From Blautia sp. MSJ-9 (GTDB lineage Bacteria; Bacillota; Clostridia; Lachnospirales; Lachnospiraceae), in contig NZ_JAHLQG010000004.1 of assembly GCF_018919065.1 (NCBI RefSeq), positions 1 through 64,000 of the forward strand: DNA of 64,000 nt, given 5' to 3'. Below the pieces are notes generated by a model. It was given only the letters and a program-made list of their open reading frames with translations, was not told where the DNA came from and searched no databases. The translations under genes and the position numbers were made by a program. Below are positions 6,653 to 34,834 of this stretch, in pieces; positions within the stretch are counted from its first letter, which is position 1, and the number at the start of each line of letters is the position of its first letter.

Positions 6653-6736
6653 TTATATAGTGGAAAAGGCTTACAATTGTAGTTACATATAAGGGAAGAA
6701 TATAAAAGGATATTGTTGGGAAAGGAAACTGGTCAT

Positions 6737-8368
6737 ATGGGAATTTATTTAAATAGTATGTCACCATATACGTTGTACAAAAGTGAAGTGAATAGTCCAT
6801 ACTTTGTAGATAAGTCGCAGATGCTGAAGGAATTGATTCCATTGGTGGAAGTTGGAAATCGTCATGTATGTGTAACGCGTCCCCGGAGATTTGGTAAAAC
6901 AGTAATGGCAAATATGATCGGTGCTTTTTTCGGAAAAGATGTAGATGCCGATGATGTATTTGATTTCTTGAAGATTGCAGAATTCCCTGATTATAAAAAT
7001 CATTTGAATCAGTATAATACGATTTATATAGATTTTAGTGTAGTTGATGATGAATGCACCAGTTATAAAGAATATATTGATGCCATAAAAGAGACTCTGA
7101 AGATAGATTTAAAGCAGAAATATTCTGAAATTACATTTCGAAGGGGAAGTTCGGTAAGAGAAGATCTGCAGAGGATTTTTGCAGAAAGAAATGAACGTTT
7201 TGTGTTTGTTTTTGATGAATGGGATTCGGTGTTTCATATGCCGTTTATTACAGAGAACGATAAGCAATCATATCTGCTGTTTTTGAAGGGACTGCTGAAG
7301 GATAAGCCGTATGTTGCGCTGGCATATATGACGGGAATATTGCCGATTGCAAAGTATTCCAGTGGTTCTGAATTGAATATGTTTGTAGAGTATACGATGG
7401 CTTCAGAATTTAGATTTGGAAATGCTTTTGGTTTTTCTGATGCAGAAGTTGATATGCTTTATAACAGATACAGCAAGATCAGAGAAGAGAGAAACGAAGT
7501 TATAAATATATCACGTGAAGGCTTGCGCGAATGGTATGATGGGTATTTTACAAAAGATGGAGAGAGAATGTATAATCCCAGGTCAGTTGTAATGGCTTTA
7601 GAGAATAATAATTTAAGTAGCTATTGGACAAGTTCTGGCCCTTATGATGAAATATTTTATTATGTGAGACATAATATTGCTGATGTGCGCAACGATCTTG
7701 CTGTTATGATAACAGAAGAGGGTGTGAAGGCAAAGATTCAGGAATATGCAGCTACTTCTATGAATCTGACGACCAGAGATGAAATTTTGTCTGCAATGGT
7801 AGTTTATGGTTTTTTGAGTTATTATAACGGAAAGGTATATATCCCTAATAAAGAATTGATGGATAAATTTGATGAGATGATCCAGAAGGAAGCTTCATTA
7901 GGATATGTATATAGATTGGCGAAAGAATCTGAGCGTATGCTTGAGGCCACACTTTATGGGGACACGGAAACAATGGAGACAATATTGTCTTATGTTCATA
8001 ATACGGAAACACCAATACTTTCTTATAATAATGAAATTGAATTATCGGCAATTGTAAATCTTGCATATCTGGCAGCAAGGGACAGGTATCGTGTGGAGAG
8101 GGAAGATAAATCAGGGAAAGGATATGTTGATTTTATTTTTTATCCGGTAGATAAAACAGATACATGTATTATTCTGGAATTAAAAGTGAATCATACACCG
8201 GAAGAAGCTATTCAGCAGATTAAAGATAAAGAATATATTCTACGGTTCCTCGGTAAATTAGGAGAAGAACCTAAATATACTGGAGAAATTTTAGGCGTTG
8301 GAATTAGTTATAACAAAGAAACTAAGGTGCATAAATGTAAAATAGAAATTCTTAGAAATAGAATTTAA
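6737..8368 (+). CDS. AAA-ATPase-like protein with C-terminal PD-(D/E)XK nuclease domain (copy 1)
   Basis: 543 residues. The N-terminal AAA-ATPase_like domain (PF09820 type) has YFVDKS at 22-27 and a P-loop variant RPRRFGKT at 48-55, then a Walker-B-like FDEWD. The C-terminal PD-(D/E)XK domain (PF08011 type) shows GYVDFIF followed by ILELKV near residue 485. Such proteins occur in many copies in Clostridia and Bacteroidetes; a role with DNA or selfish elements is suspected but not established. Start at 6737 (GGAAAGGAAACT upstream) rather than the TTG 24 bases earlier. It is a close paralogue of the gene at 52144 and follows the DUF3990 pair. A clean terminator ends it. Confidence 0.85.
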   Translation: MGIYLNSMSPYTLYKSEVNSPYFVDKSQMLKELIPLVEVGNRHVCVTRPRRFGKTVMANMIGAFFGKDVDADDVFDFLKIAEFPDYKNHLNQYNTIYIDFSVVDDECTSYKEYIDAIKETLKIDLKQKYSEITFRRGSSVREDLQRIFAERNERFVFVFDEWDSVFHMPFITENDKQSYLLFLKGLLKDKPYVALAYMTGILPIAKYSSGSELNMFVEYTMASEFRFGNAFGFSDAEVDMLYNRYSKIREERNEVINISREGLREWYDGYFTKDGERMYNPRSVVMALENNNLSSYWTSSGPYDEIFYYVRHNIADVRNDLAVMITEEGVKAKIQEYAATSMNLTTRDEILSAMVVYGFLSYYNGKVYIPNKELMDKFDEMIQKEASLGYVYRLAKESERMLEATLYGDTETMETILSYVHNTETPILSYNNEIELSAIVNLAYLAARDRYRVEREDKSGKGYVDFIFYPVDKTDTCIILELKVNHTPEEAIQQIKDKEYILRFLGKLGEEPKYTGEILGVGISYNKETKVHKCKIEILRNRI

Positions 8369-20047: not shown

Positions 20048-21622
20048 ATGAAACGTTGTAGTAATTGTGGAAAAGAAATTCAAGGAGATGCAGTTTACTG
20101 TCCGAATTGCGGAGCAGTGCAGAGAGAGGAGAGTGGGAAGAAAGAGCGGAGAAGTAATGTGATAAGGAGCAATGTGCAGAATGAAAAGCAGAGCAGTATT
20201 TTATTGAAAGTATTTGGCTGTGTTTTTGGAGTTCTGTATGCGTATGAAGCGGTGGTCCAGTTTGGAAGATTGTTAACATTCAGTTTTCTCAGATTTGATG
20301 ATATTTTATATGCATTCTTCAGGCTAGTGACAAGTGGATGGAGTGCATCCATTTTATTTCTTATAGCATTTAAATGCCGGAAGAGATATGGCTTGCAACT
20401 ATTATATGCATTATCTGGCAGTGCTGTTTTGAGATATGTATTTTATTGTGTGAGTATATTGAAGACATATCTCTTTTATGGAATATGGGGAAGTTATGTG
20501 AGCAGGTTTTTGGCAGGTCAGCTTCTGATTAATACGGTAGAGACATTGCTGGCTGTACTGGGCGGCTATTTCATTATGAAGAAGGAAGATATGCTGGATA
20601 TATCCAGAAATACAGAAGTAAAAGATCGTATCCGCAAAATTCCGGAAGCGTTGAATATTCTGTTTTCGGAAGTAGAAAAAGATGTGAATCGTCTGATAAA
20701 GAACACAGAAAACAGACAGCGCAGCGCGGCAGTACCTTCAGGAGCTGCAGCGAATAATGCGCGAAACAAAAATGCAGAACCGTGGATACCGCCTATAATA
20801 ACGTTCTGTAAGGTCAAAAAACTTACGTTGGTGTTAAAAAGTCCGGTATTTCTGGTCTTTGGAATCTTATATACGATTAATCTTGTATATGAGATTTTTT
20901 CCGGATTTTCAATTCTAAAACTGGTAACCAGTCTGTTTTCGATTTTGATCTGTATTGCCATTTGGATGATATATAGCAGTAGCATAAACGGCAAATTGGA
21001 TAGTTCGGGACTGGCAATTGTAAATGGGATTATGATATTCAGAGCTGTAATGTGGGTCATTGGCGGTGTACTTCTGATGATTCTGGCAGTTATTGCAACT
21101 GTGATCGCAGCCAATATTGCAGATACAGCAACGGTAGTATCTGTATTGGTATTTGCGATGATATTATTGGGAGTATTTCTAAATTTCGCTTACTGGTATT
21201 CTCTGCATAAGACTTTCAGTGGTATGAAATCTATTGCGACTGGGCACACTGGCGAAGTCACAGTCGGAATTTATCCGATGTTTGTTCTGGTGCTGGATGT
21301 GATTAAGAATATCGGAATGTTTATCCTGACTGTAATGGTGGGAGTTGCTCTTCCGAGCTTTCTGTATGGATATGTACAGTCGTTTGGCATGTCATTGGGA
21401 GAATTGACGAATGAATTAGGACTTGGTTATAGCGTTGGTTCCGGGCTGACAGATTCGGTCTTACAGTCGATCCTGGGACCGGCAATGCAGATACTTCACA
21501 GATCTCTGTGGAGCTATCTTATCATTTTGGTTCAAATAGCAATTTCAGTTCTGGAAATTGTGCTTCTGGTAAAGATTCGTTCTTACGAAGACATATACGT
21601 AGAAGAGGAGGAATATTCATAA
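20048..21622 (+). CDS. Zinc-ribbon multi-pass membrane protein 1
   Basis: 524 residues. An N-terminal zinc ribbon (CSNCGKE, then CPNCGA; residues 4-22) is followed by about ten hydrophobic segments in two groups, about residues 45-190 and 260-515, separated by a polar linker of about 70 residues. Both groups open with a similar V-FG-(I/V)-LY pattern, hinting at an internal duplication. No enzyme motif is seen. Start at 20048 follows GGGAGGAAAG. It is clearly paralogous to the next gene (matching ribbon, FKC-RK-YGLQL, MKKEDML and C-terminal LEI-LLVK-RSY segments). It begins the co-directional cluster that contains an FHA protein and a Ser/Thr kinase. Function unknown. Confidence 0.75.
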   Translation: MKRCSNCGKEIQGDAVYCPNCGAVQREESGKKERRSNVIRSNVQNEKQSSILLKVFGCVFGVLYAYEAVVQFGRLLTFSFLRFDDILYAFFRLVTSGWSASILFLIAFKCRKRYGLQLLYALSGSAVLRYVFYCVSILKTYLFYGIWGSYVSRFLAGQLLINTVETLLAVLGGYFIMKKEDMLDISRNTEVKDRIRKIPEALNILFSEVEKDVNRLIKNTENRQRSAAVPSGAAANNARNKNAEPWIPPIITFCKVKKLTLVLKSPVFLVFGILYTINLVYEIFSGFSILKLVTSLFSILICIAIWMIYSSSINGKLDSSGLAIVNGIMIFRAVMWVIGGVLLMILAVIATVIAANIADTATVVSVLVFAMILLGVFLNFAYWYSLHKTFSGMKSIATGHTGEVTVGIYPMFVLVLDVIKNIGMFILTVMVGVALPSFLYGYVQSFGMSLGELTNELGLGYSVGSGLTDSVLQSILGPAMQILHRSLWSYLIILVQIAISVLEIVLLVKIRSYEDIYVEEEEYS

Positions 21623-21625
21623 AAC

Positions 21626-21677
21626 TTGATATAGATCAAGGAATTAAAATGACAGAAAACGAAGAAATCTGTATAAT
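21626..21677 (+). promoter_or_regulatory. FNR-like palindrome and promoter before zinc-ribbon gene 2
   Basis: TTGAT-ATAG-ATCAA (21626-21639) fits the Crp/Fnr-type consensus exactly. Just after it ATGACA (21649-21654) and TATAAT (21672-21677) are 17 bp apart, so the palindrome centre is about 50 bp before the predicted transcription start. The rest of the 21623-21867 gap holds no gene; a weak copy of the dispersed repeat lies near 21712-21752. Confidence 0.45.
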
Positions 21678-21867
21678 AAACATTAGTATATATCTCTAAA
21701 ACAGCTGTTCAATTATGAGCAAGTAGAAGTAGCGAAGATGATTGCAAATATTTGCTTAACTGTAGAAACAGGTTGAGAGAATAAATACTTTTATTCATCT
21801 GAGATAAGCTGTATTCTGTAAGATTTGTATACAATGTACCAAGTGAGAGAAAAGTGAGGGAGGAAAC

Positions 21868-23571
21868 ATGAAGAAATGCAGTAATTGTGGAAAAGAAATT
21901 CTGGGAAAAGCTGTATGCTGTCCATATTGCGGAGCGCAGCAGAAAATAGAAGAACATGCAGAAAACAATACGGAGAATGTAAAGAAAATCAGGTATTGTA
22001 CAGGCTGTGGAGAGAAACTGGAAGAGGATTATGGATTCTGTCCGACCTGTGGAAAGCCAATCAATAACAGATATTCAAAACAAAAGACAGAAACAGGATC
22101 AGGCAATTTTCAGAATGGTGACAGAACGGGAGCCGATAAAAACAGCGGAAATACTGGCAGCAAACCGGAATCCGGCAGGAGTAGTGGAACCAGTGCTGCA
22201 GGTATGGCAGAGGATATTCGTGAGAAAATAAGGAGCACTTCTGCTAAATATCCTCAAGGATGGTTGAAAGTTTTCAGTATTGTATTTGGAATTCTGTATG
22301 GTTATTGGACATTGACTTATTTTCCATATCTTAATTATTACATGGCTGCAGATAAGGCGTGGGGATTCTTTATGATTCTTGCATGTGCGTGGAGCTGTGC
22401 AGCATTCTTTATTATCGCATTCAAATGCCAGAAACAGTATGGTCTGCAGCTAGCATATCTGGTATTTGGAGGTGCAATCTTAAAGAGTATTCTGCATCTG
22501 ATCAGTATCCAGAGACTTGCAGCATATCAGTACTGGGAGAGTTCTTTTAGTAATTATTGGCCTATTATATTTGCACTTCTGATTGCTTTTGCATGCTATT
22601 ATCTGATGAAAAAAGAAGACATGTTGGAAGTACCGGAAGGCGTGACATTTATGGAGAATGTAAAGCGAATTCCTGATGTATTACGTTTTATTTTTTCTAA
22701 AGATGGAACTGTGAAAATGGGAGAGAACTCTGTACATAAGGATACAAATAAAGCAGAGAGACCGCATAAAGATCCGGTAAAACCAGGTTCGGAAGCGGAG
22801 AAAGTTGTATTTGTTATAAATAATTCTGTATTCCTTATCTTTGGCATTCTTTATACTGTGAACCTTGTATGTAACGTATTTTATTCTTTTTCTTTTTTCA
22901 AATTGCTGACCAGTCTGTTTACCATTCTTACATGTGTTGCAATCTGGATTATCTACAGCAACGGAAGAAAGGGAGTTCTGGATGCGACAGGCTTTTCGAT
23001 GATCTGTGGTATTAATACTTTCAGACTGGGAGTGAGAGTGCTCATCAGTGTGCTCATATTGATCGGTGCGATCAGTGCAGAACTGGGAGCTGGAATATAT
23101 TTTCTGATCTTTATCATTGCATTGCTTGATCTTGGCTACTGGTATTCCATTGGAAATACATTCAGCAGCATGAAAGCGAATGCCAAAGGACAGATGGTTG
23201 AAGTGACTGCCGGGATTTATCCGATCATTATTCTCTGCATTAATACGGTGATCAAACTTGGAATCCTTGGATGGGCAAGTTTCTTGCAGTCAACTGCAAA
23301 CGGAATTACCAGTACGCTGAATCAGTATGGAAACACTACTTCCTCATTGTTTGGAGAATTGTCTTCTTATCTTGGATTTGGATATGGATACGGCTATAGT
23401 CAGTCTTCCTCTATTGTACAGGCATTTCTGAATCCGATCATTGAGTGGATCCAGAATACACTTGGATTTAGTGGTCAGAGCTTCATAATTATGCTGATCG
23501 CGGTTGCACTTCCAGTTCTGGAGATTATTCTTCTTGTAAGAGTACGTTCCTATATGAATGCAAGAAATTAA
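21868..23571 (+). CDS. Zinc-ribbon multi-pass membrane protein 2
   Basis: 567 residues. Two zinc ribbons lie in tandem (CSNCGKE...CPYCGA at 4-23 and CTGCGEKL...CPTCGK at about 48-66), then a Ser/Gly/Asn-rich linker to about residue 125, then about ten membrane segments in two groups as in the previous gene. The last segment ends LEIILLVRVRSY, matching LEIVLLVKIRSY of the paralogue. Ribosome site GTGAGGGAGGAA. Residues 490-525 before the last helix are rich in Tyr, Gly and Ser. Role unknown; tandem paralogues of unequal ribbon number suggest a heteromeric membrane complex, which is inference. Confidence 0.75.
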   Translation: MKKCSNCGKEILGKAVCCPYCGAQQKIEEHAENNTENVKKIRYCTGCGEKLEEDYGFCPTCGKPINNRYSKQKTETGSGNFQNGDRTGADKNSGNTGSKPESGRSSGTSAAGMAEDIREKIRSTSAKYPQGWLKVFSIVFGILYGYWTLTYFPYLNYYMAADKAWGFFMILACAWSCAAFFIIAFKCQKQYGLQLAYLVFGGAILKSILHLISIQRLAAYQYWESSFSNYWPIIFALLIAFACYYLMKKEDMLEVPEGVTFMENVKRIPDVLRFIFSKDGTVKMGENSVHKDTNKAERPHKDPVKPGSEAEKVVFVINNSVFLIFGILYTVNLVCNVFYSFSFFKLLTSLFTILTCVAIWIIYSNGRKGVLDATGFSMICGINTFRLGVRVLISVLILIGAISAELGAGIYFLIFIIALLDLGYWYSIGNTFSSMKANAKGQMVEVTAGIYPIIILCINTVIKLGILGWASFLQSTANGITSTLNQYGNTTSSLFGELSSYLGFGYGYGYSQSSSIVQAFLNPIIEWIQNTLGFSGQSFIIMLIAVALPVLEIILLVRVRSYMNARN

Positions 23572-23592
23572 CGAAATCGGGAGGATGAGAAG

Positions 23593-23916
23593 ATGATCTG
23601 CAGAAAATGTGGAGCAGATAATAAGGACACCAATTCATTCTGTGTGGAATGTGGTGCACCGATTATGCATGAAAAAGAAAATTCCCGGGCATCTAAACCG
23701 ATAGGAGTGCTGGCATATCTTGGTTATGAAATTTTGTTTATAATTCCTGTAGTTGGTTTGGTCAGTCTGCTGTACCTGGCATTGGGAGGAACAGAGAATA
23801 AGAATCTGAGAAATTTTGCAGGATTCTGGTTATGCAAAATATTTATATTTATTGTAATAGTAGCGGTATTGTTTCTGACGGGAGTAGTATCGATTGATGA
23901 TCTGCTATACTTATGA
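23593..23916 (+). CDS. Small zinc-ribbon membrane protein 3
   Basis: 107 residues: one zinc ribbon (CRKCGADNKDTNSFCVECGA, residues 3-22), a short linker and two hydrophobic segments (about 38-60 and 78-102). The 21-bp gap from the previous gene and GGGAGGATGAG before the ATG support cotranscription. Its last codons overlap a possible ATG of the next gene (ATGA), so coupling to the FHA gene is likely. No known family beyond the ribbon. Confidence 0.75.
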   Translation: MICRKCGADNKDTNSFCVECGAPIMHEKENSRASKPIGVLAYLGYEILFIIPVVGLVSLLYLALGGTENKNLRNFAGFWLCKIFIFIVIVAVLFLTGVVSIDDLLYL

Positions 23917-23954
23917 TATGGACATTTACTTGTAGAAAGGCAGTATGTGGAAAG

Positions 23955-25052
23955 ATGAGGTTTTCATATAATTATAAGAACGGAAAAGAAGAAATTATTT
24001 GCTATTCCTCTATGAATGATTTTGATGGAATAAGCTATGGAATCATGCAGGATGAGCGGGAATTATTTCTTCCTGTAGAAGTCAGCGAAGAAGCCGGGAA
24101 ATATGTATTTACATATAACATGTTGGGTATGGTGAATCTTCGTGCATGGATGAATGATGCATCCAGAAGTGAACAGCGCGAAATGAAACAGGAAATTGCG
24201 GAGATGCAGAGGAAACTTTTTCATATGGGAATTCTGGAGAATCAGCTGATCACAGAGGAGAGGTACATGTATGTGGATGAGCAGACAGCGCATATAAGAT
24301 TTATCTGTGTACCGGCAACTATGGAAAAGAGAATAGAGACTCCACCGGCACCAGCATCATCGGTACCGCCAGTATCTCCCATTCCTCCAATTCCATCCAT
24401 ACCGCCGGTTCCAACAGAAGATATTCCGGATACCGGGTATGATTTCGGTTCGGAAGGTCTTAAATATCCGGGATTTCTTCAGGAACCTGACGGAAATGAA
24501 AAAAAAGAGGAGCAGGCAGAGGAAGCGCCATCAGACGAGAATGGAACAATACTTGATGAAACTTTCAGGGAAAAAGCCTATGGCAACGAAAATATTACTT
24601 ATGGGGAGCCTTCAGGTTGGATTGATACAATTTCGGAGCCGATAACTACAGAAATTTCTGATGATTCGGATGACATAGATATAACGATTCCTTTGAAAGA
24701 GGAACCGGATGAAGGAGAAGAGGAAACAGTTCTTCTGGTACCGAAGTTTAAGATTGATGCGTCTCTGTACAGAAACAATACGGGCGAGATTTTTCAGATC
24801 AATAAAGAGAGAAGTGTGATTGGAAAAAGTGAAACCAGAGCGGATATTGTGATCAGAGATAATAAAACGGTCAGCAGAGCGCATTGTATCATAAGTGTGG
24901 AAGACAGAGAGTATTATCTGGAAGATAATAATTCTCTGAATGGTACTTATCTGGAGGATAAAAAACTACAGTCTGATGAAAAAGTAAGGATTCAGGACGG
25001 AAGCAGAGTCCGTCTGTCAGATGAGGAATTTATTTTTCATATTAACGAATGA
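23955..25052 (+). CDS. FHA-domain protein with DUF6382-like N terminus
   Basis: 365 residues. The N-terminal 120 residues resemble the DUF6382 module often found before FHA domains in Lachnospiraceae. A Pro/Glu-rich linker follows (about 125-250, with repeated PP and IP dipeptides). The C-terminal FHA domain (about 285-365) shows VIGKS, the SRAH core and LNGTYL, the residues that contact phosphothreonine. It would read phosphorylation by the nearby kinase at 26928. The start is uncertain: ATG 23955 has AGAAAGG 14 bases upstream, while ATG 23913 overlaps the previous stop. The gene ends overlapping a possible ATG of the next reading frame. Confidence 0.8.
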   Translation: MRFSYNYKNGKEEIICYSSMNDFDGISYGIMQDERELFLPVEVSEEAGKYVFTYNMLGMVNLRAWMNDASRSEQREMKQEIAEMQRKLFHMGILENQLITEERYMYVDEQTAHIRFICVPATMEKRIETPPAPASSVPPVSPIPPIPSIPPVPTEDIPDTGYDFGSEGLKYPGFLQEPDGNEKKEEQAEEAPSDENGTILDETFREKAYGNENITYGEPSGWIDTISEPITTEISDDSDDIDITIPLKEEPDEGEEETVLLVPKFKIDASLYRNNTGEIFQINKERSVIGKSETRADIVIRDNKTVSRAHCIISVEDREYYLEDNNSLNGTYLEDKKLQSDEKVRIQDGSRVRLSDEEFIFHINE

Positions 25053-25066
25053 TAAGGGGAGAAAAG

Positions 25067-26872
25067 ATGAAAAAGAATAAGAAGTCAGGACTGAAAATTT
25101 ATATCGTTGTGCCTGCGATTGTTGGTTTTGTATGTGTGGCGGCGATCGTGGCAGCGCTTGTGCTGGGCGTACCTGCAAAGGTAAATGCCGCCAGAATTGG
25201 AAAACAGCTTGATCTGGGAAATAAATACCTGGCTTCCGCAGATTATGACAATGCGGAAGTGACTTTTAACAAAGCACTGAAAATTGACCCAAAATCAGTA
25301 GAAGCTGCGACTGGTATGGCGAAAGTTTACAACGAGAAGAAGCAGCCGGAGAAGGCATTGGAATATGTCGAGAAGGCATCTGATAACCTTGCGAATCCGG
25401 TACAGGCGCAGGAACTGCAGGTTGTTTACAATGATACAAAGACCCAGCTGGAGGAAAATACTGGGAAGAGCAGTGATGCAAATAAGAAATCTTTTAGTAA
25501 AATTGAGAAAGTAATAGATACTGTAATGCTTACACCGACTCCTACTGAAGAACCGGAAGAAACAGTGACTCCGACACCAACAGAAGGCGCAGATGATGGA
25601 CCGGATTTTGATGACAATAAGAACAACGGAGCAAATGGTGGTGGAACGGAAGATAGTAATACTGGTGGAGAAAATAAAAACGACGAAGAAAAAGACGATA
25701 ATGATAAGAAAAAAGAAGATGGTAATACAGGCGAGGGAAATGGAACAGATGGAGATGACGAGCCAGATGGGCCAACAATAATTCCAGATCCGCCTAAAGA
25801 TATAACTCCGAAGCCTGGTGATGAAACTACTACGGACGGGATTATTCCTTTGACGGGTGAAGACATTCTGACACCAACCCCAACAATAACTCCGACGCCA
25901 ACTCCAACAGTTATTCCGGATGTAGATAATGGAAGTGCAACCAATGCAGGCGATAATAATAACGAAGAGACAATGGATAATGATGACGATGACGAGGATA
26001 CCGGTGATGAGGAGGATGAAGACACCAGCTGGAATAATAACAATAATACAGATGATGACGATGACACAGATGAGGGAGATACAGGAAACAACAGTGAAAC
26101 CGGTGGCGGTGAAGGACCTGGCGAAGAGATGCAGGAAGCCACAGTTTCTCCGGAAGAGCTGTTAAATAACTATGAAAATGACACTCTTCCATCTGAGATT
26201 CCATACGGAAATTTCAGCGGATCATCTATTTCCTATACATACGGTGATGGAGCCAGTGCAGCAGCTGCTGTAAGCGGACGTATTACTGAGACTCAGAGAG
26301 ACCTGGATGGTGATGGAATTCCGGAACTTCTGGTTGTAGAAATGCAGAGCGGAAAAATCGCTTTCAGAATTTATAAAGTCAACAACGGAAATGTAGAAAT
26401 AACTGCTTCTCAGACAATCTCAGCAGGTATGGAAACTGCAGTAGAGAGCGTTTCCTATGGAAGCACACAGACGTGTTTCCTTATGAATAATAATGGTACG
26501 TATGAAGTGGGTCTTGCTTCTTACTGCTACGGATATGATGTAGGAGAGGAAACTCCTGCAGTCAGAACCTATGCAGAAGTTTACAGTGTTGCCGGAGATG
26601 GAAGCGTATCTTTGTGTGCTTCGGGTTCTGTCCAGAACGGAGAAGGCCAGGATGGTTTCTCTGCAAGTCTGGCACCTGCCGGAATGAGTGGTTCATGGAA
26701 TAGCAGTAATGCGGAAACATTACAGTCCATGGGTTATGCAGACGATCCTTATCAGGATGCAGCAGGAGTTCCGAATCCTTTAAGCAGTGGTGTAAGTGAA
26801 GGCGGTGCTGAAACTCTTGCAGTTGTAGATGCACAGATGGCTGCCGGAAGCGGTGAGCTTACTATAAGATAA
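25067..26872 (+). CDS. Membrane-anchored TPR protein with acidic low-complexity stalk
   Basis: 601 residues. One membrane helix (about 9-32) is followed by two TPR units (about 42-115), then a 200-residue stalk of Thr/Pro, Asp, Asn, Glu and Gly (about 160-360). The C-terminal domain begins near residue 375 and contains a calcium-loop-like DLDGDGIPELLVV. The orientation should be N-in, bulk outside. The stalk looks made to span the cell wall. Start at 25067 follows AAGGGGAG. The D-x-(D/N)-x-DG-x-x-EL loop recurs in several exported proteins of this window. It lies between the FHA and kinase genes; a role as kinase partner is inferred from position. Confidence 0.7.
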   Translation: MKKNKKSGLKIYIVVPAIVGFVCVAAIVAALVLGVPAKVNAARIGKQLDLGNKYLASADYDNAEVTFNKALKIDPKSVEAATGMAKVYNEKKQPEKALEYVEKASDNLANPVQAQELQVVYNDTKTQLEENTGKSSDANKKSFSKIEKVIDTVMLTPTPTEEPEETVTPTPTEGADDGPDFDDNKNNGANGGGTEDSNTGGENKNDEEKDDNDKKKEDGNTGEGNGTDGDDEPDGPTIIPDPPKDITPKPGDETTTDGIIPLTGEDILTPTPTITPTPTPTVIPDVDNGSATNAGDNNNEETMDNDDDDEDTGDEEDEDTSWNNNNNTDDDDDTDEGDTGNNSETGGGEGPGEEMQEATVSPEELLNNYENDTLPSEIPYGNFSGSSISYTYGDGASAAAAVSGRITETQRDLDGDGIPELLVVEMQSGKIAFRIYKVNNGNVEITASQTISAGMETAVESVSYGSTQTCFLMNNNGTYEVGLASYCYGYDVGEETPAVRTYAEVYSVAGDGSVSLCASGSVQNGEGQDGFSASLAPAGMSGSWNSSNAETLQSMGYADDPYQDAAGVPNPLSSGVSEGGAETLAVVDAQMAAGSGELTIR

Positions 26873-26874
26873 AC

Positions 26875-26903
26875 ATTCTGCCAGGCCATTGACCTGGCAG
26901 AAT
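26875..26903 (+). terminator. 11-bp hairpin between stalk protein and kinase genes
   Basis: ATTCTGCCAGG (26875-26885) and its perfect complement (26893-26903) are followed by only two T, so it is a weak terminator or mRNA-stabilising hairpin rather than a full stop. It could lower kinase expression relative to upstream genes. Confidence 0.5.
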
Positions 26904-26927
26904 TTGAATAAAGACAAAGGTGAAGAA

Positions 26928-28952
26928 ATGCAGAAGTACATTGCAAACACATATGAAGTTATAGCTCAGATCGGAATGGGAAACAGTGGCATTGTCTATA
27001 AAGCCCGACACAGAAATCTGGACAAATTTGTAGTATTAAAGAAGATAAAAGCAAACGCCATAAACATTGCAGACAACCGGGCAGAGGCAGATGTGCTGAA
27101 GAATCTCAAACATGCATATCTGCCGCAGGTTATGGACTTTGTAGAGGATAACGGGGATATTTATACGGTTATGGAATTTATTTCCGGAAATTCTTTTAAA
27201 CAATATCTGGATGCCGGAACTGCTTTCCCGGAGAAGTCTGAGATCATTTGGATGAAACAGGTGGCCGCTACCCTGTGTTATCTGCATAATCAGAAACCGC
27301 CGATCATTCACAGCGATCTGAAACCGGGAAATATTATGCTGACAAACAGCGGAAATGTCTGCCTGATCGATTTTAATATTTCATTTAGTCTGGGCGGAAA
27401 TGGTTTTGTAAACGGTTATACAAAGAACTATGCATCTCCGGAGCAGATCCGGGCGTGGAAATATAATCAGACACAGCCGAATCCTTCCCTGAGAAAGAAG
27501 ATTGATAAGAGATCTGATATTTACAGTATGGGAGCTACTTTTTACCATATTGTGACCGGGAGTAAACCAATGCCGGATGATAACGGATATGTACAGGATA
27601 TCCGGGAGAAAAAGCCGGAAATGAACCAGCTCTTTGGGGCTGTGATCATGAAATGCCTGGAACCCGATCTGAAGAAACGTTACCAGAGAGCAGAGGATGT
27701 GTTGTATGATCTGCAGACTATGGCACAGAGAAGTAAAGAGTATCGGTCACTTCTGCGAAAACAGAGAATTATTTCCGGGGTACTGGCAGGCGGTCTGGTT
27801 CTTTCAGCGGTCCTTGCACTGGCTGGATATTTCCGTATAGACAGCGAGAGAATGAAGCGTTATGAGGATACTGTCGCACAGGAAGAAAAGTGTATCAAAA
27901 ACGGAAACTATGACCAGCTGGATGACTACTATCAGAAAGCAGTGAAACTTTATCCCGGAAAAATGGATGCATATCTGCAGAAAGCACTGGCGTTGAACAG
28001 GCAGAAGGAATATGAAGACTGCATTAATTTTATAAATACAAATATTCTGAACAGCAAAAGTGTGATGAATGATGGCTCAGAAGACAGTGTTTACTATCTT
28101 CTGGGCGACTGTTATTCGCAGCTGGAAGACTATGAACAGGCGGCAGAATATTATAATTCAGCGATAGAGGCAAATCCGGAGAATGGGAATTATTACAGAG
28201 ACGGTGCGATCATGGAAGCCTATTGCGGAAACACGGATAAAGCACAGGAACTCATGGAAACTGCAAAGGAAAAAGGACTTGATACGACAGAAGTCAACTA
28301 TGTAGACGGTGAGATTAAATACAGCAAAGGCGATTATGAAGATGCCCGGAGTATTTTTCAGAAATGTATTGAGGACAGCGATGATGCCTACATCCAGATG
28401 CGTTCTTATATTATGGAAGCGAAATGTATTGATAAACAGGATGACAGCGTAGATGGTAAGAAGCGAAAGATGAAACTTCTGAAGAAGGCTAAGAAAGAAC
28501 TTCCTAAGGAGAACAATATCGGTATTCTGGAAGAACTGGCACAGACATACAGTGACCTTGGAAATGATACCGGAGATATAGACTACTATCAGAAGGCACT
28601 TTCTGTATTTGAGCAGATTCAGTCTCAGGGAATGGGAAACTACAGCACGGGTTATAATATATCAGTTTTATACCAGAATATGGGTGATTACGACAGCGCA
28701 GAGCGGGAACTGATGCAGTTGCTTGACAATTACGGCGAAGATTACAAAACATATAAGAGCCTTGCTTTTCTGGAGGGATACCGTCAGGAACAGCTGCCAA
28801 AAGAACAGAGAGATTACAGCAGATTTAAAGAATACTACGAAAAAGCCCATGATCTGTACCAGAGTCAGCTTTCTTCCAACGCAAACGATGTGGAAATGGA
28901 CAGACTGGAAGAACAGTACAATCAGGCAGTGAGCAACGGATGGATTTTCTGA
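26928..28952 (+). CDS. Transmembrane Ser/Thr protein kinase with extracellular TPR domain
   Basis: 674 residues. The cytosolic kinase domain (about 8-265) has glycine loop IGMGNSG (15-21), catalytic Lys38 in VVLKK, HSDLKPGN (H128, D130) and DFN (148-150) where DFG is normal, then YASPEQ and the DIYSMGATFYHIVTG helix. A membrane helix follows (about 281-304). The 370-residue C-terminal part is TPR-rich (for example YEDCINF and YEQAAEYYNSAIEANP). Asp148 is kept, so metal binding is possible; Gly to Asn may alter activation. PASTA repeats typical of Gram-positive PknB are absent. Start at 26928 follows AAAGGTG. The FHA protein upstream is the natural reader of its phosphorylation. Confidence 0.88.
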   Translation: MQKYIANTYEVIAQIGMGNSGIVYKARHRNLDKFVVLKKIKANAINIADNRAEADVLKNLKHAYLPQVMDFVEDNGDIYTVMEFISGNSFKQYLDAGTAFPEKSEIIWMKQVAATLCYLHNQKPPIIHSDLKPGNIMLTNSGNVCLIDFNISFSLGGNGFVNGYTKNYASPEQIRAWKYNQTQPNPSLRKKIDKRSDIYSMGATFYHIVTGSKPMPDDNGYVQDIREKKPEMNQLFGAVIMKCLEPDLKKRYQRAEDVLYDLQTMAQRSKEYRSLLRKQRIISGVLAGGLVLSAVLALAGYFRIDSERMKRYEDTVAQEEKCIKNGNYDQLDDYYQKAVKLYPGKMDAYLQKALALNRQKEYEDCINFINTNILNSKSVMNDGSEDSVYYLLGDCYSQLEDYEQAAEYYNSAIEANPENGNYYRDGAIMEAYCGNTDKAQELMETAKEKGLDTTEVNYVDGEIKYSKGDYEDARSIFQKCIEDSDDAYIQMRSYIMEAKCIDKQDDSVDGKKRKMKLLKKAKKELPKENNIGILEELAQTYSDLGNDTGDIDYYQKALSVFEQIQSQGMGNYSTGYNISVLYQNMGDYDSAERELMQLLDNYGEDYKTYKSLAFLEGYRQEQLPKEQRDYSRFKEYYEKAHDLYQSQLSSNANDVEMDRLEEQYNQAVSNGWIF

Positions 28953-28981
28953 CAGGATACAAAAAGAAGGAGGAATTGCAA

Positions 28982-29119
28982 TTGATCACTTTAGGAACTG
29001 TAATGTTTGTAACAGGAATTCTGGGATTTGTTCTGTGCGGTATAAACCTGTGCCTCCTGCCAAAACACTTCCGAAAACAGCGGGAAAGAGTGCTGGAGGA
29101 AGTGAAGGCGAAGGAATAA
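28982..29119 (+). CDS. 45-residue single-pass membrane peptide
   Basis: A TTG start 8 bases after a strong AAGGAGG opens a 45-codon frame: one hydrophobic segment (TLGTVMFVTGILGFVLCG, residues 3-20), then a basic and charged tail (PKHFRKQRERVLEEVKAKE). It lies 29 bp after the kinase and 55 bp before the next gene, on the same strand, so it belongs to the operon. Small single-pass peptides of this form often bind and tune membrane kinases or complexes; this is inference. No family recognised. The ribosome site and operon position argue that it is real. Confidence 0.6.
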   Translation: MITLGTVMFVTGILGFVLCGINLCLLPKHFRKQRERVLEEVKAKE

Positions 29120-29174
29120 AGAGAAGGGACAAATTAGCCATACACAGAAAATAAAATCTACAGGGGAAGATGGT

Positions 29175-31088
29175 ATGAACATAAGAAGAAAGTTTACAAC
29201 AATAATTGGTAGTACATTGACTGTGGTATGTATGACAGTAAATTGTCAGGCATTTTCCTTTTTTACTCCGCAAGAGCAACAAGAAAATGCCTGCGCTTGG
29301 ATACAAGATGATGGATACTATTATCTTTCGGATATTTCAGGGGATGATATAGAACCGGTTAAGATAGCAGAATCAGATATAGCTTACAATTGGCCATATA
29401 TAGATGACGCAGGAAATATAACGGACGAAATAATGAATTTTTCACGAAGCTTTGATGGATATAAATATCTGGGATTTTCCGAAGATCAAAAGTATTTATA
29501 TTTTTATATAAATCTTACCGAACATTTAGAAGTTGGTACTTTATGTTGTATAGAGACAAAATATCTAAAAGGAAAATCATCACAGATAGAGAAGCATATA
29601 CTGGAAATTGATCGAAGTGTATATACAGATACGGATCCTGTGGTGCAGGAAAATGGTAGCATTATCTATCTAAAGAAAGAAGATGAAAAAAGAACATTAT
29701 ATTGTTTTAATGCTGACCGACGAATATTAATTGCGGAAAATGTATATTATTTTGGAAGTCCACAGGATGAGAAAACTGTTTATTATACGAAAGAAGTGAA
29801 TATAGAGAATACTAAAACGTACATATTGTATGGTGCTGAAATAGGTAACCCTAAAAGTGAAAAGGAGATAGGCAAAGATGTCACTTTTTATAATTATTCA
29901 GTAGCGACGATTGGAATTCCAGGAAGATTTGTGTTAAAGGGACATTATGTATATTTCGTAGAGAAAGCAAAAAGACTTTGCAAAGCGTCGTATAAATCAG
30001 AAAAAGAAATTATTGCAGGGGATAATTTGTATATCTGGAATTGGACGGATGACTATATATTATATACAAAAGGAGAGTCTTCTTATCCTGTAGAAGATAT
30101 ATTTGACTGTTCTCAATCTGCTTATAGCCAGAAAGAAATTGAACAGTTTCTCGAAAGTGTAAAGAATATATATAATGATGGAGAATATTTGGCAGGCAGA
30201 CTTTATTTGTATGATTATGATCAAGTGCTTCTGGAATCAGAGAATTATAATATGCTTCTTAAAAGAGATGGAGAGGAAGTAGAAAAAGATGATGACATAT
30301 CTATGGTGAAAATGATGTCTGAGGGTAATCCATTGGTTATTTTTGTAGATTGGAAAGAACTCTTTTTTAATAAAATTTCTGTAGATGATGTGCTTTCTGA
30401 TCCAGAGTTTAGTTTAAGCGATAAGAAAAAGGAAAAGGAGATTTTGGATAAAGTTTTAGGAGAATATTTTTACAAAGTTGGCAAGGTACCATATAAATGT
30501 GAAGTTTGCGGGGAAAATAATAAGACATTTATATTGGGTGAAGTAGATATAAATGACGTGAATCGTATAGACATGGCAGTTTTTAATAATGAACAGAATA
30601 TAGCATTTTTGTTTGAAACAGGACATTTATCCATTGTCTCACTGGATGATAATACAGAGAATGGTATTGCTGAAACACAACTGGAAAATATAGATGATAT
30701 TATAAGTATGGGAAATCAATTACTGTGTGAACAGAATAGTATGCTCTACTGGTACAATGGTAATTCATTAGAGGAATTAGGATCCATAGATGAAGCGTAT
30801 GACTCATATTATAAAGGATATGCGAATAATACGGCATTATTGCTAACATATTATGATGGAAGAAAATATGGGGGAGATCTTTGGAAAATAGGGGACTTAG
30901 AGAAACAGAAGCTTGATGAGAATGTCACGGAATGCTGGTACCTGAAATCGGGTGAGGTTCTTTATATTAGTGAGGGAAAACTAATTTTATATTCTAATGG
31001 AATCAGGACAAGGATTGCGGATGATGTGAAAGTTGCATGGCCGTTGAATGAAGAAAAAAAGCCAGAACTCTACAGATCAGACTGGTAA
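29175..31088 (+). CDS. Exported protein of unknown function, propeller-like repeats
   Basis: 637 residues with a signal peptide (MNIRRK, hydrophobic core, likely cut near residue 26 in CQAFS). The rest is rich in Tyr, Asp and aromatic-G turns and has recurring units such as YLYFYI, KTVYYTK, HYVYFV and EVLYISEGKLILY spaced along the chain, as in DUF5050-type or other beta-propeller proteins. A CEVC pair near residue 440 could bind metal or form a disulfide. AT-rich codon use (many ATA) differs from the kinase gene just upstream. Ribosome site AGGGGAAGATGGT. Function unknown. Confidence 0.55.
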   Translation: MNIRRKFTTIIGSTLTVVCMTVNCQAFSFFTPQEQQENACAWIQDDGYYYLSDISGDDIEPVKIAESDIAYNWPYIDDAGNITDEIMNFSRSFDGYKYLGFSEDQKYLYFYINLTEHLEVGTLCCIETKYLKGKSSQIEKHILEIDRSVYTDTDPVVQENGSIIYLKKEDEKRTLYCFNADRRILIAENVYYFGSPQDEKTVYYTKEVNIENTKTYILYGAEIGNPKSEKEIGKDVTFYNYSVATIGIPGRFVLKGHYVYFVEKAKRLCKASYKSEKEIIAGDNLYIWNWTDDYILYTKGESSYPVEDIFDCSQSAYSQKEIEQFLESVKNIYNDGEYLAGRLYLYDYDQVLLESENYNMLLKRDGEEVEKDDDISMVKMMSEGNPLVIFVDWKELFFNKISVDDVLSDPEFSLSDKKKEKEILDKVLGEYFYKVGKVPYKCEVCGENNKTFILGEVDINDVNRIDMAVFNNEQNIAFLFETGHLSIVSLDDNTENGIAETQLENIDDIISMGNQLLCEQNSMLYWYNGNSLEELGSIDEAYDSYYKGYANNTALLLTYYDGRKYGGDLWKIGDLEKQKLDENVTECWYLKSGEVLYISEGKLILYSNGIRTRIADDVKVAWPLNEEKKPELYRSDW

Positions 31089-31115
31089 AAATAATAGAGA
31101 AGGAGCAAAGATGAG

Positions 31116-33212
31116 ATGAAAGAAGGCAAGAAGTACATGAATTCAAAAAAGAAAATGGTAAGTGTAATAGCAGTTGTATTGGGACTTGGAATTACAGAAG
31201 TGTTTAGTTCGACAACAAGAGCAGCAGAACAGAATGAAAATGTGCAGTATTTAGAGCTTGGAGATTCAGAAGAAGAAACAGCATATAAAGAGTTTCTGGA
31301 TGCAGGTGAGTATTTTTCGGATGTTGAAGATCTGACAAATGTTATGTACAGTGTTTATGACATAAATGGCGACAAGACCAAAGAGTTGATTATAAAGGGA
31401 GCTGACAATGAGGAAAATAAAGAAGAATATTTCTTTTACCGTTATAAGGATAAAGCTGTTAAAGCTGTTGGATCTCTTGAAAATACAGATGATAATGGGG
31501 AAAGTAAACTGTATTATGTAAAAAAAGAAAAAGAAATTGCTGTAAGTAAAGAAGCAACAGATAAAAGCAGTTATACATTATATAAAGTAGGCAAAAAAAT
31601 AAAATCAAGCTTTAGTATTAACAAAGAAAATATAGATGATCAAATGAAATATACGCTTGAGGATGAAAATGGAAATGTAACTGATCAAAAGATTACAGAA
31701 GCGAATTGGTCAGAGGTTGAAGAAAGCCTTGAAGAAATCGTTTTTTACGATTTGGAGGTTTCCAGTGATTCTGAGTTTACAGAGGAACAAATTAATGTAT
31801 TAAAAAGTTCTCTTGGCGTTCCTGATGATGTTATGGTAACTCGATGTGAGGTTGGGGAACCCTGGTATTGGGAAGGAGCAGGTATCTGGATCGTAAATGT
31901 TGAACTTTATTCTGGAGATGATTTTCTTGCGGGTGCGGCAATTGATCCTGATACGTTGGAATTGGAAAGAGAAATTTATACATATGATGTAAGTAGAATG
32001 AATAATGGACTCAGTACAGGACAAGAAGAGAATAACTCTGAAGTTGTTTCGTCAGATGATGAAACAACTTCAGAGGAGACTTCTGAAATTCGGGAAACTG
32101 TCAGTAAAGTAACAAATCTTCCTTATGTTGGAGGTAACACTTATGATGTAGATTTACACTGGACTGAAAATGGTGGGCTTGCAACAAGTCAGGCAATTGA
32201 TTCTGGAATTTTAGGAACAGTCCGTATGGATTTGGACATAGATGGAGAAGAGGAAATTTTTTATGTTTCTTATGAGGAAAGTTCAGAAGCGCCAGACGGA
32301 AATGCTATTTACTTTGGAGTTATAAAGAAAATTGGAAAGTCTTGGAATATTATTTCAAAGCAGGAAGTTTCCTGTGTAAGTCCATTGGAGCATAATGGTG
32401 AAAATAATGAAAGTTCTGTATTTATGCGTAAAAGTAATGGAAAATATGAAATTTTTTATGAATCATACAGTGAAAGTGTGATTGCTACAGGACAGAGCTG
32501 GCTTTTTAGAGGATTCAGAATGGAAGAGACAGGTTTAAGTCCTATTAGTGAGACCAACAATATTTATTATGGAGGGTCACCAATTGATGAATTTTGGAGA
32601 GGTGCAGAAAGTGAACTGAATGATTATAATGGTGATGCCCAGCAAATGTTAGATAATTATTGTTCTCTTGGATTTGCCAGACCGTATATCACATTTGGAA
32701 GTATGACAGTAGATTGTAACTCGAACTTATATCAGATTGTTCATATCAATAAAAAGAATGCTCTTTCAACAATGGAAATATCTCAGTGGATTCCTCAGAG
32801 TAATGGGCAGGGAACATTAACAGGTGCTTTTAAGTGCGTCATAGAGGATTCTGGAAGCGCAGTTCCTGAAGTAATGAGTGAATATGAAAATGCACAGGCG
32901 GTAGCTGTAGATGCGAATGCAAATTCACAGGACAGTACAGAGTATTTACTGCCAGATGTTGCTAACAAATATTTAGAAGAAACAGAAGTAACATCGTTTA
33001 GTTTAGATCAGCTTCAGCTTGCTATCAATGAAATATTTGCAAGACATGGACGCTGTTTTAAAACAGCAGAAATAGATTCTTATTTCAGATCAAAGAGCTG
33101 GTATCAGCCGGATGCTTCCAAAACCGATGAACAGATTGTTGCGGAATTCAATGAGTATGAAAAGGCGAATGAGGAATTACTTGAAAAAGTAAGAGAAGCG
33201 AAGCAGAATTAG
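31116..33212 (+). CDS. Exported protein with C-terminal YARHG domain
   Basis: 698 residues with a signal peptide (about 1-37, ending TTRAA). Two calcium-loop-like motifs appear (DINGDKTKELII near residue 80, DLDIDGEEEIFYV near 372). The C terminus carries a YARHG-type domain (about 625-680: LQLAINEIFARHGRCF, then RSKSWYQPD), a small extracellular module thought to bind cell-wall or peptide ligands. A shorter start at 31137 is possible. It follows the previous gene by 27 bp and precedes the next by 11 bp, so operon membership is clear. Confidence 0.7.
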   Translation: MKEGKKYMNSKKKMVSVIAVVLGLGITEVFSSTTRAAEQNENVQYLELGDSEEETAYKEFLDAGEYFSDVEDLTNVMYSVYDINGDKTKELIIKGADNEENKEEYFFYRYKDKAVKAVGSLENTDDNGESKLYYVKKEKEIAVSKEATDKSSYTLYKVGKKIKSSFSINKENIDDQMKYTLEDENGNVTDQKITEANWSEVEESLEEIVFYDLEVSSDSEFTEEQINVLKSSLGVPDDVMVTRCEVGEPWYWEGAGIWIVNVELYSGDDFLAGAAIDPDTLELEREIYTYDVSRMNNGLSTGQEENNSEVVSSDDETTSEETSEIRETVSKVTNLPYVGGNTYDVDLHWTENGGLATSQAIDSGILGTVRMDLDIDGEEEIFYVSYEESSEAPDGNAIYFGVIKKIGKSWNIISKQEVSCVSPLEHNGENNESSVFMRKSNGKYEIFYESYSESVIATGQSWLFRGFRMEETGLSPISETNNIYYGGSPIDEFWRGAESELNDYNGDAQQMLDNYCSLGFARPYITFGSMTVDCNSNLYQIVHINKKNALSTMEISQWIPQSNGQGTLTGAFKCVIEDSGSAVPEVMSEYENAQAVAVDANANSQDSTEYLLPDVANKYLEETEVTSFSLDQLQLAINEIFARHGRCFKTAEIDSYFRSKSWYQPDASKTDEQIVAEFNEYEKANEELLEKVREAKQN

Positions 33213-33223
33213 CGAGGGAAAAG

Positions 33224-34834
33224 ATGAAAAAGCGAAGCCAATTTATTAAAAAGTCAGGAGTGCTGCTAGGAGTTGTGTTGCTTGGTATGAGTCTGTCAGG
33301 TGGAATAATTTATGCAGAAGAGTCCAATGAAATTACGGCAGATCAGGCAGAGGAGCGTAAGGAACGAATCCTTACCTCCTACCTCCTGGATACAGACGAT
33401 ATTTTGCCGGACAGTGGTTCGTTGCGAATCAGAGTGATCAACAGTTATGATGATGTCCTGCGGCAGGAAGATACTGAAAAACAGGGATTAAGTGATACTA
33501 TGTATGCAATCAACGATGTAAACGGAGATGGAATGCCGGAACTGATCATAAAGAGTCCGAATGAAGGTGCCTATACCTATGAACTTTATACATATGATCA
33601 GGAAGCAGATCAGGTAGAAAATATTTCTAAAGCCGGTATCGCAGAGATGGATACAGAAGGAAAACTGGATTTTCGATATGCATATCCGAAAAAGATCTGG
33701 GAAGATTCCGCAGACATTAACGCAGATGACCAGGAAGAACAGGTAAGTGTCTATGCAGTGAACAACGAGAGCGGATATGCCTGTATTCTTATTTATGTAA
33801 ATGGTGGCAAAGCACTGTCTGTACAGGTAAAAAATGTTGCTGATAAAGCAGATATACATATCTATCCGATCAAAAAGCAGAAAGCGTTGTTTTATTTAAG
33901 ATTATATTCTGATACAGAAGATGAATACTGTGCACTTCTGCAATTTTCCCAAAATCAGCTCAAAGAGATGGTAAATATGGATGGAGAAACCAAAACCGCA
34001 GCGGTATGGCCGCTTGCATATGGCAGAGCAGATTTGGATCAGGATGGAGAGAAAGAATTGATCCTTCGGAGATATACCGCAGATGCAACCGAGGGCGGAG
34101 AATATATTTATCATGTATATCATTACGATAAAGACAGTAAAGATTATACGGAATTTCCAGATGCAATTTTCTATTCCAGAGCAGCTGGCGGGCAGATTTT
34201 CTTCGAAAAAGAAACGGATCGTCTTCTTATCAATGAAACAATGGGAGAGCCCTGTTATGGTGTTTATACCATGAATAATGGAACATTACACAGAGAATAT
34301 GAGATTCTTGATGAGATAAAAAATGTGCCAAAGATAAAGTTTAAACGAATAGAATTTAAACAGGAAGGTACGGAATCTACAGAGAATCCAGAAACAACAG
34401 AAAGTCAGGAAATGGCAGGAAATCAGGTTACTGTTGAAACTCAGGAGCAATCACAGAATCAGCAGTTATCAGAAAACACGGCTGCTGAAGAAGTCACAGA
34501 ATCTCAGGAAGCGTCAAATAATGTAGGACCAACTCAGCCATTTGAAATCCATCAGTCAGAATCTGCTACATTTCAGGCTCCGTTTTACGGAATCTGGTGC
34601 TATGGCTCTAAAGAATCTGCTGATGCCTACAACTATGCTAACAGCCTGAACAACGCCGGATTTGAGGCAGAAGTATTCCTCACAACAGACTGGAGTAATC
34701 TCAATACAGAAAGCTATTATGTAGTAACCGCCGGCACATATGGAACAGAAGGCGAAGCAACTGCAAACCTGGCGGCTGTTCAGAGTTTCTGTTCGGATGC
34801 GTATGTGAAATATTCTGGAAATTATCAGGGTTAA
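33224..34834 (+). CDS. Exported protein with SPOR-like C-terminal domain
   Basis: 536 residues; signal peptide to about residue 30 (IIYAEE). Two D-x-N/D-x-DG-x-x-EL loops (DVNGDGMPELII near residue 101, DLDQDGEKELIL near 271). A Gln/Glu/Thr/Ser-rich linker (about 385-440) is followed by a C-terminal SPOR-like fold (about 455-536: WCYGSKESADAYNYANSLNN, then YYVVTAGTYGTEGEA). SPOR domains bind denuded peptidoglycan strands at division sites. Ribosome site GCGAGGG precedes the ATG. It is the last gene of the co-directional cluster. Confidence 0.7.
   Translation: MKKRSQFIKKSGVLLGVVLLGMSLSGGIIYAEESNEITADQAEERKERILTSYLLDTDDILPDSGSLRIRVINSYDDVLRQEDTEKQGLSDTMYAINDVNGDGMPELIIKSPNEGAYTYELYTYDQEADQVENISKAGIAEMDTEGKLDFRYAYPKKIWEDSADINADDQEEQVSVYAVNNESGYACILIYVNGGKALSVQVKNVADKADIHIYPIKKQKALFYLRLYSDTEDEYCALLQFSQNQLKEMVNMDGETKTAAVWPLAYGRADLDQDGEKELILRRYTADATEGGEYIYHVYHYDKDSKDYTEFPDAIFYSRAAGGQIFFEKETDRLLINETMGEPCYGVYTMNNGTLHREYEILDEIKNVPKIKFKRIEFKQEGTESTENPETTESQEMAGNQVTVETQEQSQNQQLSENTAAEEVTESQEASNNVGPTQPFEIHQSESATFQAPFYGIWCYGSKESADAYNYANSLNNAGFEAEVFLTTDWSNLNTESYYVVTAGTYGTEGEATANLAAVQSFCSDAYVKYSGNYQG

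Follow-up and report, generated by a model that had tools for sequence, protein, structure and literature searches.

A conserved kinase–micropeptide cassette without a neighboring pilus or secretion machine in Blautia sp. MSJ-9: a probable envelope-signaling module

What does a membrane Ser/Thr kinase control when it is encoded among zinc-ribbon and exported proteins, with no recognizable machine beside it? The question is raised by ten genes at positions 20048–34834 of a 64,000-nucleotide stretch of contig NZ_JAHLQG010000004.1 from Blautia sp. MSJ-9; the whole of this stretch was analyzed and is called the window below. The genes encode three zinc-ribbon membrane proteins (ZnR1, ZnR2 and ZnR3), an FHA reader, a stalk protein, the kinase, a membrane micropeptide and three exported proteins, of which two carry YARHG and SPOR domains. 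The original prediction, made from the DNA alone, saw in them a kinase-controlled envelope machine. A kinase-centered module is indeed real and conserved; the ten genes as one conserved system are rejected, because the presence of ZnR1, ZnR2, exported protein 1 and the full SPOR protein does not track that of the kinase. The conserved core consists of FHA protein, TPR stalk protein, Ser/Thr kinase and 45-residue membrane peptide, sometimes with a ZnR3-like protein. We consider it probable that the cluster is built around a portable envelope-signaling cassette, which here has no pilus or secretion machine attached and probably serves the local wall-facing proteins.

Relatives were sought at three levels: a genus-level sample of 64 genomes (this one and 63 others), a family-wide profile search of 397 genomes from 334 genera, and a class-wide sample of 391 genomes, with three to four candidates scored per genome in the two wider searches. 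We use G for genomes, L for loci, and C9 and C49 for two contigs of the Blautia sp. MSJ-9 genome. Full-length orthologues of the kinase, at 40–60% identity, occur in 10 of the 63 other genus genomes, and two further ones (G003 and G018) hold the kinase half only; the query began at 26931, that is, without the first Met. A profile built on the kinase's outer TPR part finds matches in 29 of the 397 family genomes, the own genome included (28 of the 334 genera), and in 7 of the 391 class-wide genomes, again including the own genome, with the other six coming from five other families. Together these searches gave 43 kinase loci: the window, 12 from the genus and 30 from the family (all matches of the family search outside the own genome). 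Six further loci from other families were taken separately from the class-wide search. Gene contexts were read on stretches of up to 20 kb, eight of them shorter than 15 kb, using models built from a few of the same loci. In the 12-row kinase clade that contains the window, the stalk gene adjoins the kinase in all 12, an FHA gene lies within 4 kb upstream in 10, and the micropeptide follows in 9 of the 11 loci with room for it.

The micropeptide is a near-constant partner of the kinase. It was defined as an open reading frame of 40–95 residues with a strong hydrophobic segment, lying between −150 and +100 bp of the end of the kinase gene. Of the 39 loci with room for it, 33 have such a frame after the kinase, compared with 18 of 306 other open reading frames of at least 250 residues in the same loci (p = 5e-27), and it is present in all six kinase loci of other families. 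Models built from half-sets find 15/16 and 17/17 of the held-out peptides among 5804 open reading frames. They also give three extra matches, of which those in L169 and L177 lie farther downstream of the kinase and that in L158 elsewhere; within the distance limits there is no match in L099, L106, L165, L166, L169 and L177. The shared plan is a glycine-rich one-pass helix, followed by a basic and then an acidic tail. The 45-residue membrane peptide of the original prediction most likely starts at TTG 28982, behind AAGGAGG. Peptides of this family, of about 45–60 residues, are easily overlooked in annotation, and offer a handle on the control of such kinases. As a separate observation, the L158 match (1741–1947) lies away from the main kinase, and that locus also has a second, 976-residue kinase-like gene.

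The kinase was described at the outset as a transmembrane enzyme with an outer TPR part, and this description holds: Pfam identifies Pkinase (142 bits) and TPR, and simple hydropathy gives one membrane segment; the start is the ATG at 26928. The window kinase carries LIDFN, and DFN replaces DFG in 40 of the 43 kinase rows. The catalytic residues are kept (Lys in 42/43, the HxD Asp in 41/43, Asn in 42/43 and the DFx Asp in 41/43), and the misses include rows that are truncated or misaligned at those positions. Compared with solved structures, the best 60 matches contain generic kinases and TPR proteins only. At E 1e-25 the kinase is the only member of its family found in its own genome; one other match there is to a generic kinase. 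L111, L112 and L113 (genomes G014, G466 and G021) hold a second type of kinase, about 950–990 residues long and 34–50% identical in the kinase domain. It lies beside WXG100-sized genes in L111, and both L111 and L113 have a neighboring FHA gene. Contig C9 of the own genome (loci L031–L035, 1–99999) also holds large islands of kinase, PP2C-like and FHA genes, and several of the island kinases bear N-terminal zinc-ribbon-like motifs.

Table 1. Features of the ten-gene cluster (positions in the window)
Feature	Position	Strand	Description
ZnR1	20048..21622	+	N-terminal zinc ribbon (Pfam), about 9 membrane segments (hydropathy); outside the conserved core
Promoter-like site	21649..21677	+	ATGACA-17-TATAAT, 11 of 12; best-scoring; in the 245-bp gap ahead of ZnR2
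ZnR2	21868..23571	+	Two zinc ribbons (Pfam), about 7 membrane segments (hydropathy)
ZnR3	23593..23916	+	Zinc ribbon (Pfam) and two membrane segments (hydropathy)
FHA reader	23955..25052	+	Pfam FHA 63.2 bits; divergent DUF6382, weak, 28.0 bits (cut-off 26.7)
Thr codon in EETVLL	24726..24728	+	Just ahead of the FHA domain; residue 272 if numbering starts at 23913
Stalk protein	25067..26872	+	N-terminal membrane segment, TPR, D/T/E/N/P-rich linker, C-terminal FG-GAP-like domain
Membrane Ser/Thr kinase	26928..28952	+	HSDLKPGN, DFN, one membrane segment, extracytoplasmic TPR part
Micropeptide	28982..29119	+	45 residues, single-pass; ribosome-binding site AAGGAGG at 28967–28973; one membrane segment (hydropathy)
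Exported protein 1	29175..31088	+	No Pfam match
Exported YARHG protein	31137..33212	+	C-terminal YARHG, 62.3 bits
Exported SPOR protein	33224..34834	+	FG-GAP-like part; C-terminal SPOR, 23.7 bits (cut-off 21)

The same core stands in very different surroundings. In six genomes (G457, G470, G472, G015, G033 and G461) the core closes a second Tad locus: the Tad genes are followed, in order, by those for a WG/TPR protein, FHA, stalk and kinase, with a one-pass peptide of 45–49 residues directly after the kinase. G026 and G480 have FHA, stalk and kinase genes together with zinc-ribbon proteins and no Tad genes; G466 has FHA, stalk and kinase; G003 has FHA and a short kinase; and G018 has a short kinase with ZnR genes. 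TadA from G015 (E ≤1e-60) is matched in 58 of the 64 genus genomes, at 81–100% identity in six (Tad-2), at 68% in two and lower in the rest, and the six Tad-2 genomes coincide exactly with those in which Tad genes lie next to the cassette. A single TadA match, of a 57% type, is present in the own genome, on contig C9 (Tad-1); a DUF6382-FHA gene (193 bits) lies downstream of it, with no stalk or kinase there, and one of the C9 islands described above stands directly before it.

Among the 43 kinase loci, Tad genes are found in 10, and EssC and/or WXG100 in 8. L170 was scored as Tad through a Flp1-like pilin and weaker Tad matches, unlike the other nine, which were scored at set thresholds; L176 was scored through three WXG100 matches without EssC. 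Neither set of genes is found in 25 of the 43, the window included, where some of the stretches end at contig ends. Tad-linked relatives in the wider family are L152, L161, L170 and L172, and EssC-like genes occur in L207, L208 and L210, three of the six loci from other families. The link to type VII secretion in relatives that the original prediction proposed is thus present, as is the absence from the window of WXG100 and EssC that it reported: models for EssC, WXG100, PP2C and Tad proteins have no match anywhere in the 64 kb.

The kinase tree was calculated from 40 rows, leaving out the fragmentary L109, L110 and L171, which are kept in the 43-locus counts. The window kinase pairs with that of G016 (100%), and both join the six Tad-2 kinases in a clade of eight (99%). 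The next rows beyond this clade are stand-alone kinases (L106, L107, L108 and L151, with no nearby Tad genes). On this tree the Tad label changes 5 times, compared with a mean of 9.0 when labels are shuffled, and all labels change 12 times, compared with 16.0. We therefore conclude that partner machines have been swapped repeatedly. That the cassette is wired to pili or secretion in related gut bacteria, and here stands alone beside wall-facing proteins, suggests the reuse of a single bacterial controller across different surface machines. A more far-reaching version of this view is possible, although we would give it somewhat less than an even chance: that there is a general clostridial phospho-controller (DFN kinase, obligate one-pass micropeptide, FHA reader and often a stalk), repeatedly re-wired to Tad, to type VII secretion or to no machine, and that the window would hold an undescribed envelope assembly of zinc-ribbon and wall proteins run by it.

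The position in the tree also bears on the likeliest of the alternatives, that the window is the remnant of a pilus locus, in which an ancestral order of ZnR3, Tad-2, FHA, stalk, kinase and peptide has lost its Tad genes, and the leftover control genes do little or serve Tad-1 in trans. The well-supported sister position of the window and G016 kinases to the six Tad-2 kinases fits this history, as do G015 and G033, in which a relative of ZnR3 lies upstream, and the FHA–stalk–kinase–peptide run downstream, of the Tad-2 genes; the own genome, moreover, retains a Tad-1 locus. However, the four stand-alone loci that come next in the tree lack nearby Tad genes as well, and therefore gain of Tad-2 by the six costs no more changes than its loss. 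In addition, ZnR3 relatives lie upstream of Tad-2 in only two of the six loci, others being found at the stand-alone kinase loci L107, L108 and L109, and the reading frames and catalytic residues of the window are intact. We regard a remnant as unlikely.

The FHA protein was also correctly recognized in the original prediction. Its homologues begin opposite the ATG at 23955 and not at 23913, from which the frame is open, and on this alignment 23955 is the more likely start. The FHA domain retains the SRxH and Asn positions and has GK in place of GR. The threonine in EETVLL may be a phosphoacceptor for the protein's own FHA domain; this type of pattern is duplicated 11 residues apart in L100, L101, L102 and L104. 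The nearest relatives of the protein are the Tad-2-linked FHA proteins (36% over 266 residues, E 7e-52), and at a coarse level the relationships among FHA proteins match the kinase tree. The FHA protein of the own Tad-1 locus was considered as the closest relative and rejected (E 7e-14 only). FHA proteins of about 770–790 residues occur in kinase loci L107 (4282–6654), L108 and L153–L157, and the one from L107, which was scanned, has ABC-transporter ATPase and permease domains. A scan of genome contigs gave one weak relative, L027, of trypsin-FHA type.

The genes on either side of the core behave differently from it. Pfam confirms the zinc ribbons of all three membrane proteins, and ZnR1 and ZnR2 are paralogues (30% identity over 572 residues, E 3e-77); the two were expected to have ten or so helices, of which the multi-pass character stands and the count does not (Table 1). 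An internal repeat within ZnR1 or ZnR2 was rejected on comparing the halves (hhalign probability 0.2%, no match), and the best match of the transmembrane region to solved structures has E 0.14 only. A neighborhood search for the paralogues with FHA and kinase genes had been proposed as a check: the core does co-occur, and the paralogues do not belong to it, with strong matches to the ZnR1/ZnR2 types in 3 of 64 genus genomes only (the own genome, G009 and G016). Exported protein 1 has no match at E 1e-5 outside its own genome in the same sample. By sequence, ZnR1/ZnR2 and exported protein 1 are thus almost private to this genome. The full SPOR protein was likewise found only here, with partial matches to the SPOR domain in seven other genomes and to the middle part in G009. 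In G009 (L028:12061–19499 and L029:1–1042) a ZnR2-type membrane protein adjoins a 1443-residue open frame with LRR, FG-GAP-like and YARHG parts, and the same locus also encodes a protein with multiple zinc ribbons as well as an exported one that has NusG domain II at its end.

The stalk protein, predicted as a stalked TPR surface protein, has TPR and a single N-terminal membrane segment, and the predicted YARHG and SPOR-like ends of the exported proteins are present (Table 1). The end domain of the stalk is conserved among relatives (28–56% identity to the window). By hhalign it is similar to part of the YARHG family (probability 86%, E 5e-6) and less strongly to the SPOR protein (E 5e-5), and its best match to solved structures has E 0.017 only. 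In 8 of the 43 loci, a YARHG gene is encoded on the kinase strand no more than 5 kb away. Elsewhere the genes after the micropeptide encode a protein similar to M15 D-alanyl-D-alanine carboxypeptidase (L100), F5/8-type proteins (L103 and L104) and an RHS-repeat protein (L105).

The ten open reading frames were confirmed, all on the + strand, and the original description of same-direction genes with mostly small gaps is accurate: ZnR1 and ZnR2 are separated by the widest gap, of 245 bp, whereas from ZnR2 onward, across nine genes, the frames are 11–58 bp apart or overlap by 4 bp. Promoter-like sites in the region are at the chance level (46 observed, 48.2 expected). The terminator scan gave 15 sites where 7.9 were expected, none of them mapped to the end of the cluster. 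NCBIfam gives no family above its cut-off for any of the ten proteins among the matches listed. The neighboring genes in the window are metabolic and transport genes, for example those for a GH42 beta-galactosidase and a tRNA-editing protein upstream.

From the gene content, conservation, motifs and contexts described above we infer a series of signaling steps, a shared operon and local targets for the cassette. Sensing of exported wall-facing proteins (the YARHG protein, the SPOR protein and exported protein 1) would fall to the stalk and to the kinase's outer TPR part, while the micropeptide would sit by the kinase in the membrane and tune or couple it. The active kinase would phosphorylate threonines, including the acidic-x-T-V-L-L site just before the FHA domain, and the FHA and DUF6382 domains of the cytoplasmic reader would relay this state to whichever envelope machine is connected: the second Tad pilus in the six close relatives and, in several that are more distant, type VII secretion. 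In the window no machine is encoded nearby, and therefore the cassette most likely serves the zinc-ribbon membrane proteins and exported proteins beside it, or else a machine encoded on another contig (Tad-1 on C9 or the type VII secretion system on C49).

Several observations weigh against this proposal. The distribution of the kinase is not matched by that of ZnR1, ZnR2, exported protein 1 or the full SPOR protein, and G009 has ZnR2- and YARHG-type neighbors without a kinase of the window family. G016, which has the nearest kinase, lacks an FHA gene or micropeptide alongside it, the order there being stalk, kinase and then, directly, a YARHG relative. The 245-bp gap before ZnR2 may divide the cluster into two transcripts. 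No PP2C was found in the window by model search, though PP2C lies near the kinase in 10 of the 43 loci. Both 68% TadA loci leave their contigs before the cassette region, with the start of an FHA-like gene visible after the WG gene in one. The type VII secretion label is not clustered on the tree (7 changes, shuffled mean 7.4), which has long branches and parts that are unsure. The TVLL pattern was chosen post hoc: 13 of 44 FHA proteins match it, compared with 5.3% of control windows, and in only 10 of the 13 does it stand directly before the FHA domain.

The own type VII secretion system (L036, on the 12,369-bp contig C49) has an FtsK/SpoIIIE ATPase with FHA, a LytTR regulator, YukD and WXG100 proteins and, after these, exported proteins at the place where L159, L164 and L179 have FHA, PP2C and kinase genes. 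The window cassette might then substitute for the missing genes in trans, and the window kinase is the only one of its family found in the genome. On the other hand, C49 stops inside the ATPase gene, so that further genes may lie beyond its end; contig C9 has other kinases, phosphatases and FHA genes able to serve; and the nearest kinases stand with Tad genes or alone. A role of this kind seems improbable. We also give little credence to the view that the kinase cassette merely lies among unrelated lineage-specific surface genes, with no functional link: the failure of those genes to travel with the kinase, the chance level of promoter-like sites and a 245-bp gap that could contain a promoter would suit it, but it leaves aside the close spacing across nine genes, the eight loci with YARHG near the kinase, the kinship of the stalk end domain with part of the YARHG family, and the adjoining ZnR2 and YARHG types in G009.

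Elsewhere in the window, three genes (6713–8368, 52144–53784 and 55982–57691) combine AAA-ATPase_like and PDDEXK_9 nuclease domains, and 50992–51846 is a PDDEXK_2 transposase-type gene. Long Big_2 Ig-like proteins are encoded at 46948–49605 and 59087–60937, in AT-richer stretches, the second also having VWA. At 765–4097 a 1110-residue open frame joins DctM and DctP parts of a TRAP transporter, and a DctQ gene adjoins it.

A literature search, made largely without full texts, gave no description that we recognized as the FHA–stalk–kinase–peptide cassette. Its parts do have known counterparts. PknB/Stk1-type PASTA kinases share with the window kinase a kinase-domain match, one membrane segment and an outer sensor part; compared with the Stk1/PknB model (NF033483), however, the window kinase scores 149.5 bits where the cut-off is 450, the match stops at residue 270, the outer part is TPR and not PASTA, and the motifs are HSD and DFN in place of HRD and DFG. 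In FHA switches of the GarA/OdhI type, a threonine site lies immediately before the FHA domain. The window FHA likewise has a Thr ahead of it, in a different sequence and with DUF6382 as partner domain, and we know of no metabolic enzyme that is a target of this protein. YARHG is described as an extracellular domain, proposed to bind peptidoglycan and said to associate with kinases (PMC3355149); in the window it is not fused to the kinase but forms the C-terminal end of a separate, exported protein encoded two genes beyond the micropeptide. As for Tad pilus loci, six close relatives end theirs with the FHA–stalk–kinase–peptide run, whereas the window has no match to TadA, TadB, TadC or TadE/G. 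Some CpaF motors, mainly in betaproteobacteria, are reported to carry FHA domains (PMC12019362).

The closest likeness is to two subtypes of type VII secretion system, T7SSe and T7SSj. In PMC11217815, T7SSe is defined by TseA, A2, B, C, D, F, H, I, J and K, where TseB is ubiquitin-like, TseD is the kinase, TseI is large and spans the envelope, TseJ (like TsjJ) is a DUF6382-FHA protein, TseH and TseK (the latter like TsjK) are one-pass proteins and TseF (like TsjF) is a phosphatase; the T7SSj kinase TsjD bears TPR, and T7SSg/h are noted beside Tad loci. What these systems have in common with the window is a kinase in the membrane whose fold has an active site and whose outer part is helical (TPR in TsjD), together with a DUF6382-FHA protein and small proteins that cross the membrane once; the window adds the stalk and zinc-ribbon proteins. 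The window has a TseJ-like protein (DUF6382 28.0 bits, FHA 63.2 bits) and a TseD-like one, the latter by its described make-up and not by sequence comparison with published TseD; the micropeptide after the kinase is one-pass, as TseH and TseK are described to be. Counterparts of the membrane FtsK/SpoIIIE-type ATPase (TseC), WXG100 proteins (TseA and TseA2) and phosphatase (TseF), as there described, have no match in the 64-kb window. It is therefore no T7SSe, and is a cassette resembling the regulators of one. The kinases, FHA proteins and short one-pass proteins found at such loci have been listed there as parts of the secretion subtypes (PMC11217815). The kinase and micropeptide also occur at Tad pili or with no machine, and therefore these parts look like an exchangeable controller and not like subunits of a secretion machine. 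The comparison sharpens the question of whether a single kinase–micropeptide pair monitors the envelope and turns pili, secretion or wall proteins on and off.

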